Below are positions 203-56,246 of a stretch of 64,000 nucleotides of DNA, in pieces. The DNA lies in assembly GCF_008520305.1 (NCBI RefSeq), contig NZ_ML703263.1:62001-126000 (forward strand). The letters are read 5' to 3'. Origin of the DNA: Mesorhizobium sp. SARCC-RB16n (GTDB lineage: Bacteria; Pseudomonadota; Alphaproteobacteria; Rhizobiales; Rhizobiaceae). Made by a program: the position numbers and the translations under genes. The number at the start of each line of letters is the position of its first letter. Position 1 is the stretch's first letter. The notes under the pieces are model-generated. The model did no database searches. It was not told the DNA's origin and saw nothing but the letters and a program-made list of their open reading frames with translations.

Positions 203-837
203 TGGCGGCGGACCGCGCCGGTGCGCCACCACGAGCCTGGCAGCGCATGCTGTCCGGCCGCCGGCTCGACCTGCTCGACCCCTCGCCACTCGACATCGAG
301 ATTTCGGACATCGCCCATGGGCTCGCCCGCGTCGCCCGCTGGAACGGCCAGACCAGCGGCGAGCACGCCTTTTCGGTCGCCCAGCATTCACTGCTGGTCG
401 AGGCGCTGTTCAACGAGCTGGTGCCGCAGGCTTCGGCCGACGACCAGTTGGCGGCACTGCTGCATGATGCGCCCGAATATGTCATCGGCGACATGATCTC
501 GCCATTCAAGTCGGTGATGGGCGGCAGCTACAAGGATTGCGAATTGCGCCTGCAACGCGCCATCCATCTGCGTTTCTCGCTGCCTCCCGAGCCGGGTCCC
601 GTACTGCGCAAGGAGATCAAACGCGCCGACCAGATCGCCGCCTATTTCGAGGCAACGCTGCTCGCCGGATTTTCGACCGCCGAGGCGACCGAGTTCTTCG
701 GCCGCCCGCGCGGTTTTTCCGCCGAGCGTTTCGACTTCACGCCATGCTCGGTGACCTGGGCACAGAATGCCTTCCTGAAGCGGTTTTCGGCAATCGAGAC
801 GTCAAGACACCACGTTGCGACATCCGCGCTAGGGTAG
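202..837 (+). CDS. HD-domain hydrolase, YfbR-like
   Basis: This 211-residue soluble protein carries HD-superfamily metal ligands: histidines 55 and 62 (EHAFSVAQH), the HD pair at 88-89 (LLHDAPEYVIGD) and an Asp near residue 140 (KRADQIA). The arrangement matches YfbR-type 5'-deoxynucleotidases, which remove phosphate from nucleoside monophosphates, but the substrate cannot be read from sequence. The ATG overlaps the stop of the ygfZ-like gene, which fixes the start. Residues 130-200 are family-variable. No regulatory signal of its own is visible; it is probably co-transcribed with the upstream gene. Confidence 0.8.
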   Translation: MAADRAGAPPRAWQRMLSGRRLDLLDPSPLDIEISDIAHGLARVARWNGQTSGEHAFSVAQHSLLVEALFNELVPQASADDQLAALLHDAPEYVIGDMISPFKSVMGGSYKDCELRLQRAIHLRFSLPPEPGPVLRKEIKRADQIAAYFEATLLAGFSTAEATEFFGRPRGFSAERFDFTPCSVTWAQNAFLKRFSAIETSRHHVATSALG

Positions 838-902
838 AAAACGCTAAATTAACCGGATGCGTCAACAGTGTGGTGTTCGATTTAGCACCGCAGGGGCGCC
901 TC

Positions 903-3044
903 ATGCCCGTCGTGGATGTCAAGGATGGTTCGGTCGTCCCGGAGCGGGTGGCCGGAGGCGTGGCGCGCTCGCGCCGCATGCAAGATGAGCTGCGCGAGCA
1001 GAACGAACGCTTTTCAGCCGCTGTCGAAAACATGTCGCATGGCCTGTGCATGTTCGACGCCGATGAACGCATGATCATCTGCAACCGCAACTACATCGAC
1101 ATCTTCCACCTCGACGCTAAGGTGATGCGGCCAGGCATCCGCTTCATCGACATTCTGCGGCATAGCGTCGACCTCGGCGTCGCCTCGCAAAGCGCCGACG
1201 AGCTCTACGCCATCCGCAAGCCCTATATCGACCAGGCGAAACCTTCGACTTACGAAGAAATCCTGTCGGACGGCCGTATCATCCTTATCTCGCACCGGCC
1301 GCTGGCTTCGGGCGGCTGGGTCTCGATCTACGAGGACATCACTGAACAGCGGCGCGCCGAGCAGGATCTCAAGGAGCAGCATCGCCGCTTCGACGCAGCG
1401 CTCGCCAACATGTCGCAAGGCCTGCTGATGTACGACGCCGACGGCAAGATGATCGTGCGCAACGGGCGCTTTCTGGAATTGTACAACGTCACGGCGGCCG
1501 ACTTCCCGCTTGGAACGACGCATCGCGACGCGCTCGAGCGGCTGCTGGAACTCGGCATCTACACGAAGATCGACGTCGACAGTGAAGTCGCCAAGACCGA
1601 AGCCTGCCGGCGGGCGGGAAAAATGCACTCGACGTATCGCCATCTTGCCGACGGCAGGACGATTCTGGTCGTGCGCCAGCCGATGAGTGGCGGCGGGTGG
1701 GTGGCGACGTTCGACGATGTCACGGAGCGCCGTCTGGCCGAAGAGCGCATGACCCATCTTGCGCATCACGACACGTTGACCGGATTGCCCAACCGATCGA
1801 TGTTTCGCGAGCGGCTCGACCTTGCGCTGGAGGATGTGGCCGCTACGCCGCTCGCGATCTTCTCGCTCGACCTCGACCGTTTCAAGGCTGTCAACGACAC
1901 TTGGGGGCACCCCGCCGGCGACTGGCTGTTGAAGAGCGTGGCCGAAAGACTGCAGCGTTGCCTGCGCCATGACGCAGACATGATTGCCCGTTTCGGCGGC
2001 GATGAGTTCGTCGTCATCCAATCCAACTCCGTGGGCATTGCCGATGCTGAGAAACTGGCAAAGCGCATCGTCGAGGCAATCGCAAAACCATTTCGCGACA
2101 AGAGTCGAGACATGCATGTCGGCATCAGCCTGGGCATCGCCGTTTTCCCCGCCGATGGCCGTGACGCCGACACGCTGCTGAAGAACGCCGATACCGCCCT
2201 CTACCGGGCGAAGAGCGAAGGGCGAAACCTCTATCGCTTCTTCGAACCTGGAATGGACGCCGTCGTGCAGGCCCGCCGGGCGCTTGAAGTCGACCTGGAG
2301 GCGGCGCTGCCGCGCCAGGAGTTCGATCTCGATTTCCAGCCCATCATGAACATCGCCTCGGGCGAGATCATCGGCGCGGAGGCCTTGATGCGCTGGCATT
2401 CACCAGCGCGCGGCAAGGTGGTGCCGGACGACTTCATTCCGGTCGCCGAAGAGACAGGACTGATCGTGCCGCTCGGCGAGTGGGCGCTGAGGAAAGCCTG
2501 CGCGACGGCGGCAAGCTGGCCGGCGGGTTTACGCATTGCGGTCAATGTCTCGGTGGTGCAGCTCAAAAGCAGCGGGTTTGCCCGCGGCGTGATCTCGGCG
2601 CTGGCTTTTTCCGGCGTGCCGGCCGGACAGCTGGAACTGGAAATCACCGAAACCGTGCTGATGGATGAGAGCAAAGCCGTGCTGAAGACGCTGCGCCAGT
2701 TGCGTGAGCTCGGTATCCGCATCGCGCTGGACGATTTCGGCACCGGCTATTCCTCGCTCGGCTACCTCAGGCGTTTTCCGGTCGACAAGATCAAGATCGA
2801 CCGGTCATTCATTCGTGACATGGGCAACCGCGACACGGCGGCGATCGTTCGCTCCATCATCGGTCTCGGCACCGAGCTTGGCATCGTCGTCACCGCCGAG
2901 GGCGTCGAAACCGAAAGGCAACTCGACATGCTGCGCGACAATGGCTGCGTCGAGGCCCAAGGCTATCTGATCGGCGTGCCATCGAAGGCAGCTGACATCC
3001 AGCGTCTGTTGAAATCACGTGCGCTGCACAGCCAATCCGGCTGA
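903..3044 (+). CDS. PAS-PAS-GGDEF-EAL cyclic-di-GMP protein
   Basis: The 713-residue protein has no membrane segment. Two related PAS domains (about 36-155 and 160-285) each open with an RF.AA..NMS.GL motif. They are followed by a GGDEF domain (about 295-450) with intact GGDEF at about 364-368, and an EAL domain (about 465-705) with EAL near 492-494 and the DDFGTGYSSL loop. Both catalytic signatures are present, so it could make and degrade cyclic-di-GMP. The inhibitory RxxD site normally ending six residues before GGDEF reads HDAD, so product inhibition through that site looks lost. I chose ATG 903, preceded by AGGGG; the frame is open upstream to 537 but that would run deep into the HD gene. 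Confidence 0.9.
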   Translation: MPVVDVKDGSVVPERVAGGVARSRRMQDELREQNERFSAAVENMSHGLCMFDADERMIICNRNYIDIFHLDAKVMRPGIRFIDILRHSVDLGVASQSADELYAIRKPYIDQAKPSTYEEILSDGRIILISHRPLASGGWVSIYEDITEQRRAEQDLKEQHRRFDAALANMSQGLLMYDADGKMIVRNGRFLELYNVTAADFPLGTTHRDALERLLELGIYTKIDVDSEVAKTEACRRAGKMHSTYRHLADGRTILVVRQPMSGGGWVATFDDVTERRLAEERMTHLAHHDTLTGLPNRSMFRERLDLALEDVAATPLAIFSLDLDRFKAVNDTWGHPAGDWLLKSVAERLQRCLRHDADMIARFGGDEFVVIQSNSVGIADAEKLAKRIVEAIAKPFRDKSRDMHVGISLGIAVFPADGRDADTLLKNADTALYRAKSEGRNLYRFFEPGMDAVVQARRALEVDLEAALPRQEFDLDFQPIMNIASGEIIGAEALMRWHSPARGKVVPDDFIPVAEETGLIVPLGEWALRKACATAASWPAGLRIAVNVSVVQLKSSGFARGVISALAFSGVPAGQLELEITETVLMDESKAVLKTLRQLRELGIRIALDDFGTGYSSLGYLRRFPVDKIKIDRSFIRDMGNRDTAAIVRSIIGLGTELGIVVTAEGVETERQLDMLRDNGCVEAQGYLIGVPSKAADIQRLLKSRALHSQSG

Positions 3045-4996: not shown

Positions 4997-5269
4997 TCAG
5001 AGGTGCCCGCTCAGGGCCGCCACCATGTCCTTGTTGGCCGCGACGGGCACGATCTCGAACTCGACCAGATCAGCCCATTCGATAACCCATCGCTGCAGCA
5101 GCGTCACATCGTCGGTCTCCACCAGCAGGAAGCAGCGGCTCATATCGGCCGCGATCCAGCTATGATGCACGACGAGCTCCTCCGGCTTCAGGCGGCCACG
5201 GTCGCGGAACCGGCGATAGATTTCCTTGCGGTCGCAGCCGGTGAAATCCTCGATGACGATGAACTGCAT
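4997..5269 (-). CDS. DUF3303-family small protein
   Basis: A 90-residue soluble protein beginning MQFIVIEDFTG, with WIAADMSRCFLLVETDD in the middle. It looks like the DUF3303 family, a ferredoxin-like alpha/beta-barrel fold of unknown function. The start is supported by GAGGGG seven bases upstream. It lies 16 bp downstream of the RimK-like ligase gene on the same strand, so it is probably the last gene of that operon. No catalytic residues stand out. A role as an accessory to the ligase/protease pair is inference from position only. Confidence 0.7.
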   Translation of the reverse strand: MQFIVIEDFTGCDRKEIYRRFRDRGRLKPEELVVHHSWIAADMSRCFLLVETDDVTLLQRWVIEWADLVEFEIVPVAANKDMVAALSGHL

Positions 5270-5285
5270 GTTTCCCCTCAGTGGA

Positions 5286-6749
5286 TTATCGCCCCGGCCG
5301 GTCGAGCCGCTCCAGGAACCACTGCGTCAGCCGGACCCAGACCTCGTCCTTCTCCCCGGAATCCTCCCAACCATGGTCGAGGTTGGGGTTGTCGTTGACC
5401 TCGATGACGAAGACGCCGTCCTTGGTCTCCTTGAGGTCGACGCCATAGAGGCCGTCGCCGATACAGCGCGCCGCCTTCACTGCCGTCTCGACGACATGAG
5501 GCGGCGTCTCCTTCAGCGTGAAAGTCTTGATGCCACCCTGGTCGGGCTTGCCATTGGCCTTGTGGTTGACGATCTGCCAGTGCTTCTTGGCCATCAGATA
5601 GTGCACGGCAAACAGCGGCTGGCCACCGAGCACGCCGACACGCCAGTCATATTCGGTCGGGATGAATTTCTGGGCGATCAGAAGATCGGAATCCTCGAGC
5701 CATTCGGTGGCAAGCGTCTTCAGCTCCTCGAAATTGGCGCATTTTTTGACACCGCGCGAGAACGACGAATCCGGGATCTTCAACACCAGGGGAAAACCCA
5801 GCGTCTGCGCCGCGAGTTCGAGATCAGAGGCGCCGGCGATCATCACCGTCGGCGGCACCGGCACCTTGTTGTAGGCCATCAGTTCGTTGAGATAGACCTT
5901 GTTGGTACAGCGGATCATCGACAGCGGGTCGTCGATGACAGGCATGCCTTCCTGCTGGGCACGGCGGGCGAAACGGTAGGTGTGATTGGAGATCGAGGTG
6001 GTCTCGCGGATGAACAGCGCATCGTAATTCGCGAGCTTGGCGAGATCTTTCCTGGTGATGGGCTCGATTTCGACGCCCATCTTCTCGGCGATCTTGGCCC
6101 AGTAGCGCAGCGACGAGATTTCCGACGGCGGCAATTCCTCATGCGGATCGACCAGCGTGGCGAAGGTGTAGCGCGCCGGGGTGCGGCCTTTGGTGTCGCG
6201 CCACTCACGGTTGGTGTAGGTCTCCAGGCACTGGATGAAGTCCTTTTCCTCGTCCTCGGTCATGCGCGCCAGCGGATGGAAGCCGATCTTGCGGATCGAA
6301 GCCCATTCGGCGCTGTCCTTGATGTGGACCTCGAGCGCCGGCGCGCGGAACCAGTCGAACAACAGCTTGGCGAAACGGTCCCAGACCTTGGATGGCCCGA
6401 TGCCGAAGAAGATGGAGACCTTCACCGGGAATACGCCGCCGAGGTCCTTGCGGCATTTGTTGAGCGCCAGTTCCAGTTCCGGCAAGGCGTGCTCGTAGAG
6501 CTTGCGCTCCGACAGGTCTATCATCGTCTCGACGGTCGGGATGACCTTATGGCCGCGCGAACTCGCCAGCAGCGACGCATAATAGCCGCGGCTCTGGTAG
6601 CCGTAATTGTTCGACAGGTTGATGACTTTCGGCCGTTGGCCGCGGAACAGCGAGGGGTGCGCGAGATAGTCGCGATTGGTGATGATCTTGTGCGGTGTCG
6701 CCACCTGGTCGAGATCGCTCTGCCTGCCGGTAAGAATGACCCAGGTCAT
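5286..6749 (-). CDS. RimK-type ATP-grasp ligase with RLAN N-terminal domain
   Basis: The 487-residue protein has an N-terminal alpha+beta region (about 1-240) of the RLAN type, followed by a RimK-like ATP-grasp domain (about 260-480). ATP-grasp signatures visible are VLKIPDSSFSRGV, the hinge LIAQKFIP, and the metal-binding end VIEVNDNPNLDHG. ATP-grasp ligases of this class join a carboxylate to an amine, often adding amino acids to a protein or peptide C-terminus, through an acyl phosphate. RLAN-RimK genes are known to neighbour a GNAT acetyltransferase fused to a papain-like peptidase, exactly the upstream gene here, whose stop shares a base with this start (TAATG). The substrate is unknown. 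This is not ordinary RimK, which is about 300 residues. Confidence 0.85.
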   Translation of the reverse strand: MTWVILTGRQSDLDQVATPHKIITNRDYLAHPSLFRGQRPKVINLSNNYGYQSRGYYASLLASSRGHKVIPTVETMIDLSERKLYEHALPELELALNKCRKDLGGVFPVKVSIFFGIGPSKVWDRFAKLLFDWFRAPALEVHIKDSAEWASIRKIGFHPLARMTEDEEKDFIQCLETYTNREWRDTKGRTPARYTFATLVDPHEELPPSEISSLRYWAKIAEKMGVEIEPITRKDLAKLANYDALFIRETTSISNHTYRFARRAQQEGMPVIDDPLSMIRCTNKVYLNELMAYNKVPVPPTVMIAGASDLELAAQTLGFPLVLKIPDSSFSRGVKKCANFEELKTLATEWLEDSDLLIAQKFIPTEYDWRVGVLGGQPLFAVHYLMAKKHWQIVNHKANGKPDQGGIKTFTLKETPPHVVETAVKAARCIGDGLYGVDLKETKDGVFVIEVNDNPNLDHGWEDSGEKDEVWVRLTQWFLERLDRPGR

Positions 6750-7930
6750 TATCTCTTTCCCAAAGTGATGGCGGCACGCAGTCCGTCGCGGCCGAACTGC
6801 GCCATGTTCATGAAGATGCCGTAAGGCACGGGAATGTTGGCGGCATCAAGGATGGTTTCCTGCCTTTCATCCTCGACCCACGGATCATGGATCAGAATAT
6901 GGTCGCCATCATCGCCGATGGCCAGCACCCAATGCGGCACCTTCTTGCCAAACATCAGAAAGCCGCTGATCAGCACCAGCACCAGTTTGCCCGCGGCGAG
7001 AGCCGCCCTGATGTCGTCGATGGTGAACGGACGGTAATTCACCGGGATGCCGTAAAGTTCCGCGCGGCGGCGAAAGTCGACCTGCGCCAATTCCATGATC
7101 CGGCGCTTGTCCTCGCTACGCACCGATTGCAGGAACAGCGCGCCGTAGAAGGAGACAAAGATTTCCGCCGCGAGCCCGCTTTCGTAGCCCGAAACGGCCA
7201 GACCAAATGGTTCGCAGCCACCCGGCCCAGACATCATGAAGACGGTCGTCGCCTCGCGCCAGAGTCGGATTTCCATCACCGGGTCGGGTACGAAACCACG
7301 ATCGAAATTGGCCATGGCCATCATCAGGCAGCATGGACCGCAGGTGAACTCACAGGTCTGCTGGTAGAATGGCACCCTGGTGGCGACCGGTAGGTCGCCG
7401 CGCAGGGTTTTTTCGTAGCGCAGCGCCGTCGCGCCATCCTCGTAGTACTCCGGCTCGCGGCCAATCTTGCGGTAGCCTGCCTGCTCATAGATACGGATGG
7501 CACGGCCATTGTCCTCGCGCACTTCGAGACGCAGCATCATGCGGTCGTGTTCGAAGGCTGCCTCTTCGGCCGCGGACAGCAGCTGACGGCCCATGCCGAG
7601 CCCGCCGAAAAACGGTCCGACGGCTATGGAATAGAGCCGTGCGACCCCACTGCCCTTGCGAAACAGCACGATCGCATAGCCGCCGACGCGGCCATCGATT
7701 TCGGCGACCAGCGTCTCGGCGGTCTCCCGTTCGATGAACTGTCGGAAGGAGCGGCGGGAAATGCGGTCGCTCGAGAACACAGCTTTCTCGATGGCGGCGA
7801 GATCATCGACGTCGGACGCGCGGGCCGTGCGGATCTCGGCAGGCATGCGGCTTGAGAAAACCTCGATTGCGTTGCGAAAACGGCCCCGGTCAAAAGCGTC
7901 GCGAACACCGGCCGAAGCGCCGGTATTCAT
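6749..7930 (-). CDS. GNAT acetyltransferase fused to C39/papain-like peptidase
   Basis: The 393-residue protein joins a GNAT domain (about 32-175, with VGPFFGGLGMGRQLL as the acetyl-CoA loop and IYEQAGYRKIG) to a papain-fold peptidase (about 185-390). The peptidase shows CEFTCGPC at 193-200 with Cys197 in the usual CGP position, Gln190/191 for the oxyanion hole, VPHWV with His333, and IHDP with Asp349. It could acetylate an amine and cleave a peptide, or trim what the neighbouring ligase builds. I used ATG 7930, with AAGGAG 12 bases upstream; TTG 7933 is nearly equivalent and ATG 7846 is a shorter option. It is probably the first gene of a three-gene operon with the RimK-like and DUF3303 genes. 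Confidence 0.82.
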   Translation of the reverse strand: MNTGASAGVRDAFDRGRFRNAIEVFSSRMPAEIRTARASDVDDLAAIEKAVFSSDRISRRSFRQFIERETAETLVAEIDGRVGGYAIVLFRKGSGVARLYSIAVGPFFGGLGMGRQLLSAAEEAAFEHDRMMLRLEVREDNGRAIRIYEQAGYRKIGREPEYYEDGATALRYEKTLRGDLPVATRVPFYQQTCEFTCGPCCLMMAMANFDRGFVPDPVMEIRLWREATTVFMMSGPGGCEPFGLAVSGYESGLAAEIFVSFYGALFLQSVRSEDKRRIMELAQVDFRRRAELYGIPVNYRPFTIDDIRAALAAGKLVLVLISGFLMFGKKVPHWVLAIGDDGDHILIHDPWVEDERQETILDAANIPVPYGIFMNMAQFGRDGLRAAITLGKR

Positions 7931-8053
7931 CAAGCGCTATCGCTCCTTGATTAGGGCCGAATTGTGACAGTTTCCGCGGCGGCAGGGAAGCCGGCAAGCT
8001 TTGAACGGGATAGCTGTTTTCAAGCCAATCGGCCGTGCAAGATTGGAGCCAGT

Positions 8054-8845
8054 TCAGCTGGCAAGACCGGCCAGAAGCTGGCCATACGCACTCTTCGCCA
8101 CAACCGCCAATCGCTCGCGCGGCAGCGAACCGACGACGGCACAGCCATAGCCCTTGTCCAGCCAGTAGACGGCCTGCGGACCGTCCTGCGCCGAAGCATA
8201 GGTGCCCTTGGCACTCTCGGTCGATTCCGCCGTCACGAAGAGGGATATGCGCTCGCCCTGGTCGTCCTCGTAGAGCAGCATTGCGGCCTTGCTTTCGCCG
8301 GCCGGCAGCAACCGGCCGCCAACCAGTTGGAAGCCGTTTGCGCTCAGGTCCGGCACCACCAGCTTCAGGCCGACCCGGTTGGACAGCCAGGTTTGCAAAT
8401 GATCCTTGTCGCTGGCCGGCACTTCCACTGCATGGCGCTTCTCGGCGGCATAGATGACATGGGCGGCGATCGCCTGTTCGGCGAGCTGATCCTCCGCGGG
8501 ATCCTCCTGCCCGAGGCCGCCGATGCCGGCGAAGTAGCCGCCAAATCCGCCCGTGGCCAGAAGCACGGCCGCGGCGGCGGCAAGCCACCAGCGTGAGCGT
8601 GGCAATGCTGCCCTAACAGGCGCTTCGCCGAGCACCACCTTGCGCAAGCGCGGGGGAACAGGCTCATCCAGCACGCCGGCAAAGGCTGAGCGCAATGCCT
8701 TACGGTCGGCGGTGAAGCGGGCGCTCCTGGCCTTCATCTCGGGATTGGCGTCGAGCCAGGAATCGTAAGCTGCACGCTCATCGGTCGGTAGTTCGCCGTC
8801 GAGCGCCATATGGATGTCACGTTCGGAAAAATCGCGGCGGATCAT
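8054..8845 (-). CDS. Transmembrane anti-sigma factor
   Basis: A 263-residue protein with a cytoplasmic N-terminus (about 1-80, including IHMALDGELPTDERAAYDSWL, the helical zone seen in anti-sigma factors), one membrane helix (about 86-106, WWLAAAAAVLLATGGFGGYF) and an exported C-terminal domain. No HxxxCxxC zinc motif is present. The ATG overlaps the sigma-factor stop by four bases (ATGA), so the pair is co-translated. It should hold the sigma factor inactive at the membrane until an envelope signal arrives; the signal is unknown. Confidence 0.85.
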   Translation of the reverse strand: MIRRDFSERDIHMALDGELPTDERAAYDSWLDANPEMKARSARFTADRKALRSAFAGVLDEPVPPRLRKVVLGEAPVRAALPRSRWWLAAAAAVLLATGGFGGYFAGIGGLGQEDPAEDQLAEQAIAAHVIYAAEKRHAVEVPASDKDHLQTWLSNRVGLKLVVPDLSANGFQLVGGRLLPAGESKAAMLLYEDDQGERISLFVTAESTESAKGTYASAQDGPQAVYWLDKGYGCAVVGSLPRERLAVVAKSAYGQLLAGLAS

Positions 8846-9360
8846 TTCTCGACGATCCTTATGGTGCGGCGCCGCGCCGTGTCGTCCAGCAACCCGCGCA
8901 GTTCCTCACGCCCGCGCGCGATGCGCGACATCAGCGTGCCCGCGGGCACACCCAGAATGTTGGCGGCTTCGGCGTAGGAAAAGCCCTCGATGGCGACCAT
9001 GACCAGCGCCGCGCGGCGATCGGGGCTGATCGCCTGCAATGCGTCGATGATCTCGCGCGAAGCAATGCCCTCCAACTGTTCGGCCGGTTGGGCAACCGCC
9101 TCGCCCGCCTCCAGCGGCAGCATTGCCGCTTCGCCGCGGCGGTTCACCTTGCGCATCTGGTCGATGAACAAATGATGCATGATCGTAAACAACCACCTCC
9201 TGGGGCTTTCTCCTGTCTGCCAGTTGTCGAGCCGCAGCAATGCGCGCTCGAGGCAGTCCTGAACGAGGTCGTCCGCAGCATCGCGGTCGCGCAAAAGCGA
9301 GCGTGCGTAGCGGCGCAGGCGCGGTATTTCGCCAAGGATTGCTGCCTTCTTTTCGTCCAT
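8842..9360 (-). CDS. ECF-type RNA polymerase sigma factor
   Basis: The 172-residue protein has region 2 (about 15-80, with RYARSLLRDRDAADDLVQD and RRWLFTIMHHLFID) and region 4 (about 105-160, with VAIEGFSYAEAANILGVPAG). It lacks regions 1 and 3, as expected for the extracytoplasmic-function class. I chose ATG 9360 (MDEKKAAIL); the frame is open to a GTG at 9459 but the extra residues do not resemble a sigma factor. The next gene encodes its membrane anti-sigma factor. A promoter-like pair of GGGAAT and CGTTAT lies upstream, suggesting self-activation. Confidence 0.9.
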   Translation of the reverse strand: MDEKKAAILGEIPRLRRYARSLLRDRDAADDLVQDCLERALLRLDNWQTGESPRRWLFTIMHHLFIDQMRKVNRRGEAAMLPLEAGEAVAQPAEQLEGIASREIIDALQAISPDRRAALVMVAIEGFSYAEAANILGVPAGTLMSRIARGREELRGLLDDTARRRTIRIVEK

Positions 9361-9471
9361 GACCGCTGGTTCTGAGGTCGCCCTTGTTGATCCCGATTGA
9401 ACGCGCCTTCCCGGCACGGCGCAAGCGGCCAGCGCGAAGCGGTCCACCGCTCCGGTCACCCAAGCAATGAG

Positions 9472-55380: not shown

Positions 55381-55601
55381 CAACCCCTCCGCACTGGCTT
55401 GCCGCTGTTGGCGTATCTTGCTGGCTCCTGCGCTGCATAGCGCATCAATTGGCGACAGGAAACCGGCGCATACGTGACAATGCGGATTTGGCCAAAAAGT
55501 CGCGCATTCCGCGGCAGGCAAGCCGTTTCCGCGCGGCGCGACCCGCCCAAGCTTGCGTTTTTCATTGTTCGACGGCTTGCTTATCGGCCATACTTCCCGC
55601 C

Positions 55602-56246
55602 ATGCGCATTCCCGGGCCAGGCGGCTTCTCTTCGACGCGCTTTCCATCAACGCCAGGCCGGGCCTGCCGGGCGGCTATTTTGGCCCTTCTGGCGTTGGCG
55701 CCGGGTCATGCCGTCGCGGATGAAGTGAAGGTCTGGGCAACAGGCGCGTACTCATTCTCCGACGAGCTTGGCGGTTTCCGCATCACCGGAGCCTCCGGCA
55801 TTGGAACCAAGGACGATCCGCTTGTCATCACCGAAGAGCTAAATTCGGCGACACCCGTAACGCTGACCATCCGCACCACAAAGCCGATCCAGGCATTCGG
55901 CAAGGCGGGTGAGTTCGCCAATGGCATCATGTACATGCGCCTTGACGTGCTCAACAACAGCGGCCAGGCCTGGATCGAATTCCAATTCGAGCTTCAGGAA
56001 ATACTGAATCAGCCGAGCGTGTTTGGAGATGGGTTTTCGTTCGACCAGCGCAACAAGACGCCTGACAATATCTGGTCGAGCAATTTCGCCGATTTCGACC
56101 GCGAGTTCGAACCCTATGACCGGCTGCTGTTCAAGAACGGCAAGGTCGATCCTATGAGGACCGCCAGCTTCGAGTTCCTGATGACCGACTACACGCCGCG
56201 ATGGACCTTTTATCTCGTGCAGGATCCACGCATACCCACTGGCTAG
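55602..56246 (+). CDS. Exported protein of unknown function
   Basis: The 214-residue precursor has a long signal peptide (about 1-38, RAAILALLALAPGHAVAD) and a mature beta-rich domain with GGFRITGASGIGTKDDPLVI, LDVLNNSGQAWIEFQFEL and DNIWSSNFADFDREFEPYDRLLF in part. No membrane anchor or catalytic motif is evident. I do not recognise the family. It is divergent from the ETF-QO gene and 90 bp before the uracil-DNA glycosylase gene on the same strand. Confidence 0.75.
   Translation: MRIPGPGGFSSTRFPSTPGRACRAAILALLALAPGHAVADEVKVWATGAYSFSDELGGFRITGASGIGTKDDPLVITEELNSATPVTLTIRTTKPIQAFGKAGEFANGIMYMRLDVLNNSGQAWIEFQFELQEILNQPSVFGDGFSFDQRNKTPDNIWSSNFADFDREFEPYDRLLFKNGKVDPMRTASFEFLMTDYTPRWTFYLVQDPRIPTG

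Follow-up and report, generated by a model that had tools for sequence, protein, structure and literature searches.

Three adjacent minus-strand genes of Mesorhizobium sp. SARCC-RB16n, located in the 64,000-nucleotide stretch of contig NZ_ML703263.1 analysed here (hereafter the window), encode a GNAT acetyltransferase fused to a C39/papain-like protease domain of the DUF3335 family, an RLAN-RimK ATP-grasp ligase, and a DUF3303 protein. Comparison with 160 further RLAN-RimK loci identifies a two-enzyme core of GNAT and RLAN-RimK, in which the GNAT is the constant partner; the protease domain is optional, and the GNAT stays. The best explanation, held with moderate confidence, is that this core combines a writer ligase with a capping acetyltransferase, to which the protease would be an optional eraser and the DUF3303 gene a bystander.

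The GNAT and RLAN-RimK Pair

The gene arrangement described in an earlier note on this DNA, three genes with a 1-bp overlap followed by a 16-bp gap, was borne out by the open reading frame (ORF) calls, which put all three on the minus strand, and by the sequence; the three-gene observation is confirmed, far beyond chance. The GNAT-DUF3335 fusion (393 aa; 6749..7930, minus strand) starts with an ATG at 7930, with an alternative TTG possible at 7933; its stop codon TAA (6751-6749) and the start codon ATG (6749-6747) of RLAN-RimK (487 aa; 5286..6749, minus strand) have base 6749 in common, and the intergenic positions 5270-5285 lead to the DUF3303 gene (90 aa; 4997..5269, minus strand). Above the Pfam cut-offs, the fusion protein matched PF00583 and PF11814 (DUF3335, 251.4 bits), the ligase PF14401 (RLAN, 130.5 bits) and PF08443, and the small protein PF11746 (DUF3303, 93.5 bits); with NCBIfam, none of the three proteins scored above a model's cut-off. 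Structure prediction gave a predicted local distance difference test score (pLDDT) of 86.5 and a predicted template modelling score (pTM) of 0.77 for the fusion protein, and a pLDDT of 88.3 and a pTM of 0.62 for the ligase.

The 160 loci comprise 80 fetched regions, mostly one per genus, and 80 contig loci, which are the best 80 among the matches listed and weighted toward close kin; across the two sets, two pairs of loci carry an identical ligase. In 158 of the 160 loci a GNAT gene lies no more than 2.5 kb from RLAN-RimK, in agreement with the earlier statement that the pairing recurs in bacteria. The partners are GNAT-DUF3335 fusions in 100 of these loci, solo GNATs in 54, solo GNATs with a DUF3335 domain nearby in two (L183, L220), and GNATs joined to RLAN-RimK in a single chain in two (L173, L203), the first of which also carries a separate GNAT-DUF3335 gene. 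With these single-chain fusions set aside, the spacing is below 100 bp in 126 of 136 same-strand pairs of GNAT and ligase. The two loci without a nearby GNAT are L154, whose genome carries a GNAT-DUF3335 fusion away from the RLAN-RimK locus, and L307. The near-constant pairing and the two single-chain fusions argue for one pathway. RLAN, the only domain searched in a phylum sample of 349 genomes, was found in 62 of them, and within the family of the window in 50 of 109 genera sampled.

Both partner types also occur side by side: one locus (L183:5219-9286) encodes RLAN-RimK, then a solo GNAT, then a GNAT-DUF3335 fusion, and one genome (G485) has two RLAN-RimK copies (L152 and L153), of which one is paired with a GNAT-DUF3335 fusion and the other with a solo GNAT.

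When the ORFs of at least 60 aa in the 80 fetched regions were clustered, the largest clusters after ligase and GNAT reached nine loci (the clusters were not named by family). The lack of any third gene, ribosomal or otherwise, shared by more than 9 of the 80 loci counts against each of three alternatives considered below, a metabolite pathway, a ribosome-modifying pair and a peptide natural-product cluster.

N-acetylated peptides are exemplified by N-acetylglutaminylglutamine amide (NAGGN) in bacteria and N-acetylaspartylglutamate in mammals. The pair could belong to a small-metabolite pathway of this type, in which the GNAT would make an N-acetyl amino acid, RLAN-RimK would add a second residue to give an N-acetyl di- or oligopeptide, and the protease would degrade the product. 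The two single-chain GNAT-ATP-grasp fusions formally resemble NAGGN synthetase (TIGR03103), the same model matches the GNAT-peptidase of the window weakly (18.3 bits), and such a pathway suits a pair that is often found without the protease and for which a precursor gene was not found; however, the cut-off of TIGR03103 is 569 bits, the match is confined to the GNAT-peptidase protein, and the best matches of the GNAT are acetyltransferases of protein N-termini. The metabolite pathway is considered unlikely; it and the ribosomal proteins discussed below are the principal competitors of the best explanation.

An ArgX/LysX/RimK-Like Ligase

The ligase consists of an RLAN domain (residues 26-172; 6234..6674, minus strand) and an ATP-grasp domain of the RimK/LysX type (residues 283-459; 5373..5903, minus strand). 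Its closest PDB relatives by sequence are LysX and RimK; by fold, the predicted model was nearest in Foldseek to ArgX:LysW, LysX/ArgX and RimK, and all 50 matches listed were ATP-grasp enzymes, with the RLAN part not placed. RLAN also had no convincing PDB relative by sequence search (best E 0.27). Asp438, Glu450 and Asn452, which we take to be the usual metal-site residues of ATP-grasp enzymes, are invariant in all 161 aligned ligases. On sequence and predicted model, the enzyme resembles ArgX, LysX and RimK and is kin to them; ATP-grasp ligases of the RimK kind phosphorylate a carboxylate and then join an amine to it, and LysX and ArgX join an amino acid to the C-terminal carboxylate of the carrier LysW. 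LysX and ArgX figure among the top structural matches. A small gene resembling LysW, however, does not recur at the RLAN loci outside groups of close kin, and the window ligase remains below the cut-off of the LysX model TIGR02144 (89.1 vs. 275.6 bits); the same applies to the RimK S6:glutamate ligase model NF007764 (26.6 vs. 331 bits).

A RimI-Like Acetyltransferase as the Constant Partner

The GNAT domain of the window (residues 40-167; 7430..7813, minus strand) has Ard1, RimI and Naa10 as its closest PDB relatives by sequence, and RimI and Ard1 as its closest relatives by fold of the predicted model; all structural matches listed were acetyltransferases. It falls short of the RimI model TIGR01575 (78.9 bits vs. 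a cut-off of 86.4), which the GNAT partners in three other genomes (G173, G082, G184) pass. Glu136 and Tyr148 stand at the positions that are presumably those of the RimI catalytic pair; Glu136 is retained in all 101 fused and all 58 other partners, and Tyr148 in 94 and 57 of these, respectively. In a hand-chosen set of genomes, the partner GNAT ranks first or second with the RimI profile in all 18 that bear RLAN (61.9-89.5 bits), and in the 12 without RLAN the second match, where listed, does not exceed 56.9 bits (for two of these 12 there is no second match among those listed). Judged by its sequence, the partner GNAT is a RimI-like paralogue and kin to the N-alpha-acetyltransferases; GNATs of the RimI/Ard1 kind acetylate alpha-amines. 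The partner differs from RimI and Ard1 (Naa10) in being a second RimI-like GNAT per genome and, in the window, in its fusion to a protease.

Since both enzymes are kin of the modifiers of ribosomal proteins S18 and S6, the pair could be a second ribosome-modifying set, with RimI and RimK paralogues acting on these neighbours in the small subunit. A RimK-family ligase above cut-off was found in only 4 of the 18 RLAN-bearing genomes, and in none of the four from the genus of the window, a point in favour of this reading; against it, RimK is similarly rare in genomes without RLAN (2 of 12), and another RimI-like GNAT is retained beside the partner in all 18 RLAN-bearing genomes. Ribosome modification is decidedly unlikely.

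The DUF3335 Protease Domain Is Conserved Where Present but Optional

The protease domain of the window (residues 186-390; 6761..7375, minus strand) carries Gln191 and the triad Cys197/His333/Asp349 pointed out in the earlier note. Among 101 aligned fused proteins, the window included, Gln191 is found in 100, Cys197 in 100 (one Thr), and His333 in 100 (one gap), and position 349 is occupied by Asp in 95 and Glu in five, with one gap; the triad is present and conserved where the protease domain exists. The matches listed for the GNAT-peptidase were all acetyltransferases, by profile as well as by model, and the protease fold was not placed.

The weight that the earlier note placed on the protease was not sustained: the domain is missing at many loci while the GNAT remains, and in 55 of the 158 GNAT-bearing cases it was not found at the locus or nearby. 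Twenty-seven genomes have a locus without a fused protease: in 24 of them the GNAT is solo, G085 has a GNAT-RLAN fusion, G606 lacks a GNAT at the locus, and G485 has two loci, one of either kind. A genome-wide search found no DUF3335 in 23 of the 27; in the other four it was located at the other RLAN copy (G485), in GNAT-DUF3335 fusions elsewhere (G606, G437), or as a stand-alone protein at the locus (G221). Chelativorans differs in the protease domain from its close kin. Of the 14 genomes behind contig loci, 12 lacked DUF3335 genome-wide, and the two that had it were chosen as positive controls. On the FastTree ligase tree, which carries a long-branch warning, the protease state needs 24 changes, at least 20 of them forced by starred branches, a count that cannot separate gain from loss; the scatter of one and the same fused architecture across the tree favours protease loss.

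The GNAT tree was built from 65 partners hand-picked out of 159, counting that of the window, together with 20 RimI-like GNATs and 10 others, and 6 of its 92 inner branches are starred. In it, 25 of the 29 fused GNATs group together, apart from the solo GNATs (support 88, branch not starred), a pattern that at first suggested replacement in place. A single clade of all partners is not rejected by this tree (approximately unbiased test, p 0.79), a result that does not prove one clade. Relative to their ligases, solo GNATs have diverged faster than fused ones, with median ratios of 3.4 (17 pairs) vs. 2.0 (27 pairs) at 75-95% ligase identity (p 0.0002) and of 1.55 (11 pairs) vs. 1.38 (29 pairs) at 60-75% (p 0.003), the pairs not being strictly independent; long-branch grouping is for this reason the likelier cause of the split in the tree. 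Pairwise identities disfavour an in-place swap in which a solo GNAT replaced the GNAT-C39 gene, for at least the close cases: in L221, the solo GNAT has its nearest relatives among the fused GNATs of its close kin (63%). True replacement of the GNAT is likely in L186, L196 and L220, which form a starred group. In the last of these, a stand-alone DUF3335 gene (L220:9329-9967), in which Cys, His and Asp motifs can still be recognized, separates the GNAT gene from RLAN-RimK and is encoded on the opposite strand; it adjoins a GNAT of another tree group.

ATP-grasp, GNAT and C39-like domains are all generally known from clusters for ribosomally synthesized and post-translationally modified peptides (RiPPs), and the locus could be a RiPP-like natural-product cluster whose protease cuts a leader. 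The frequent absence of the protease speaks against this possibility, as do the small ORFs (18-75 aa, within 1 kb), which recur only among close kin: the 12 largest clusters of such ORFs come from loci whose ligases are at least 78% alike, and 10 of these clusters are entirely contained in longer ORFs of other frames. A RiPP-like cluster is very improbable.

The DUF3303 Gene as a Probable Local Addition

DUF3303 had been proposed as a third, undescribed member of the system, with gene neighbourhoods as the means of checking, and the neighbourhoods turned against it. In the genus of the window (81 genomes), RLAN is present in 79 and DUF3303 in 68 genomes, and the two are adjacent in 64 of the 79 RLAN-bearing genomes. 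In the order sample (160 genomes; RLAN in 32, DUF3303 in 28) and the family sample (199 genomes; RLAN in 83, DUF3303 in 14), some genomes being common to the samples, adjacency was confined to four and three genomes of the same genus, respectively, and among RLAN-bearing genomes outside the genus it was 0/28 and 0/80. A single-sequence search found DUF3303 in none of the 80 fetched regions; among the 80 contig loci it occurs in ten, nine of Mesorhizobium and one labelled Alphaproteobacteria (L240), which falls among the Mesorhizobium loci on the ligase tree. Within the genus the gene is split into two pieces in G413, reduced to 57 aa in L234, and missing from L236, where the LysR and desaturase genes remain. 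The DUF3303 protein had no PDB match up to E 1. A three-part system in which DUF3303 plays a working role would accord with the adjacency within the genus and with the same-strand arrangement in the window; against the restriction to one genus and the split, truncated and missing copies there, this proposal was rejected as extremely improbable. Because adjacency is limited to a single genus in which copies are damaged or missing, DUF3303 is best seen, from gene content in the samples searched, as a probable bystander or local addition kept in much of one genus.

Neighbouring Genes and Other Features of the Window

The window ligase is 98-99% identical to those of four Mesorhizobium contigs (L231, L232, L233, L256), of which L232 belongs to Mesorhizobium ciceri WSM1271 and carries DUF3303 beside the pair. 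Genes for an extracytoplasmic function (ECF) sigma factor and an anti-sigma-like protein (8054-9369) lie upstream of the GNAT-peptidase on the same strand, and 21 of the 160 loci have homologues of both genes in the same upstream position and orientation; the ligases of these loci are close kin, and GNAT-only loci are among them; they may be regulators of the pair, or reflect plain synteny. A PAS-GGDEF-EAL protein is encoded on the opposite strand (537-3044), ca. 2 kb past DUF3303; homologues of this common family occur somewhere in 32 of the 160 loci. RimA, the partner of RimK, is also a cyclic-di-GMP phosphodiesterase (PMC11957791). Farther away, Rfam places a Mesorhizobial RNA 10 (RF02879, 125.7 bits) at 55582-55724.

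A mobile or phage origin was rejected: matches were found in none of the 50,697 phage records (at E values up to 1e-10) and in 11 of the 72,556 plasmid records (at E values up to 1e-20), PADLOC models for anti-phage defence gave no match to the three window proteins, and PHROG matches were generic only.

Comparison with Known Systems

A neighbourhood of RLAN-RimK and a GNAT-papain-like peptidase was reportedly described by Iyer and colleagues in 2009, and the Pfam text on RLAN presumably gives the same association. The window shows the same domains and does not depart from this neighbourhood: it has an RLAN-ATP-grasp fusion and an adjacent GNAT-DUF3335 protein, and catalytic-type residues are intact in all three domains. 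The core pairing has thus reportedly been described before, and the three-part extension is unsupported; the refinements obtained here, which the 2009 paper may already contain, are a constant, RimI-like GNAT, an optional protease, and the occasional fusion of the GNAT to RLAN-RimK. Two later papers cite Iyer et al. 2009 (PMC10318531; PMC12239564), and the former describes DUF3335 members as often fused to GNAT domains, which for their part are seen as possible peptide ligases or acetylases.

In the RimK-RimB system of Pseudomonas (PMC11957791), a RimK-type ligase is likewise paired with a protease, RimB, which removes RimK-added residues, and a RimB-RimK hybrid enzyme exists; in contrast to the papain-like, acetyltransferase-fused PF11814 protease of the window, RimB is an aspartic retropepsin. 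A retropepsin RimB was not found among the scanned neighbours of the window ligase, which besides the three genes were LysR, desaturase, sigma and anti-sigma-like proteins. The RloABC operon of Pseudomonas aeruginosa also combines an ATP-grasp protein and a protease; it differs in its inactive-transglutaminase membrane protein and signal-peptide protease, and a GNAT is not mentioned in the accessible part of its description (PMC12239564). A literature search that covered subscription journals thinly found no paper naming a product of RLAN, none treating RLAN with ATP-grasp, RimK and peptidase together, none naming a RimK family protein along with a C39 family peptidase, none mentioning PF14401 or PF11746, none on DUF3303 and, among the matches listed, none on the pair; DUF3335 appeared in one paper.

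Proposed Mechanism

By analogy with RimK, LysX and ArgX, RLAN-RimK would use ATP to activate a peptide or protein at its free (C-terminal) carboxylate and join an amino acid there; the RimI-type GNAT would acetylate the alpha-amine of the same substrate or its product as an N-terminal cap; and the DUF3335 domain, when present, might take off or trim what was added, in the way that RimB acts on the products of RimK. The earlier suggestion that the pair builds and trims a peptide or adds amino acids to a protein fits its nearest characterized enzymes (ArgX/LysX/RimK, RimI/Ard1, and RimK-RimB); that both enzymes share a substrate, the order of the steps and the role of the protease are here put forward from analogy.

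Several observations weigh against this proposal. No small precursor gene that recurs beyond close kin was found in the 160 loci, so that a substrate shared by both enzymes is hypothetical. The window proteins stay below the RimK, LysX and RimI cut-offs, and kinship is weak evidence for chemistry because the specificities of ATP-grasp and GNAT enzymes drift. The protease is so often missing that it may have a role other than erasing; and L307, a Sulfuricurvum contig, has RLAN-RimK without a GNAT at the locus and without DUF3335 genome-wide. A more specific version, in which a widespread second RimI/RimK pair rewrites both ends of one substrate, possibly a core protein such as the S6:S18 pair, with the RimI paralogue capping the N-terminus, the RLAN-type ligase lengthening the C-terminus and the often-missing papain-like domain undoing the change, is unlikely. 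For the writer ligase and capping acetyltransferase, narrowing the core to a RimI-type GNAT and an ArgX/LysX/RimK-type ligase tells which two mutants, and which mass shifts, matter.

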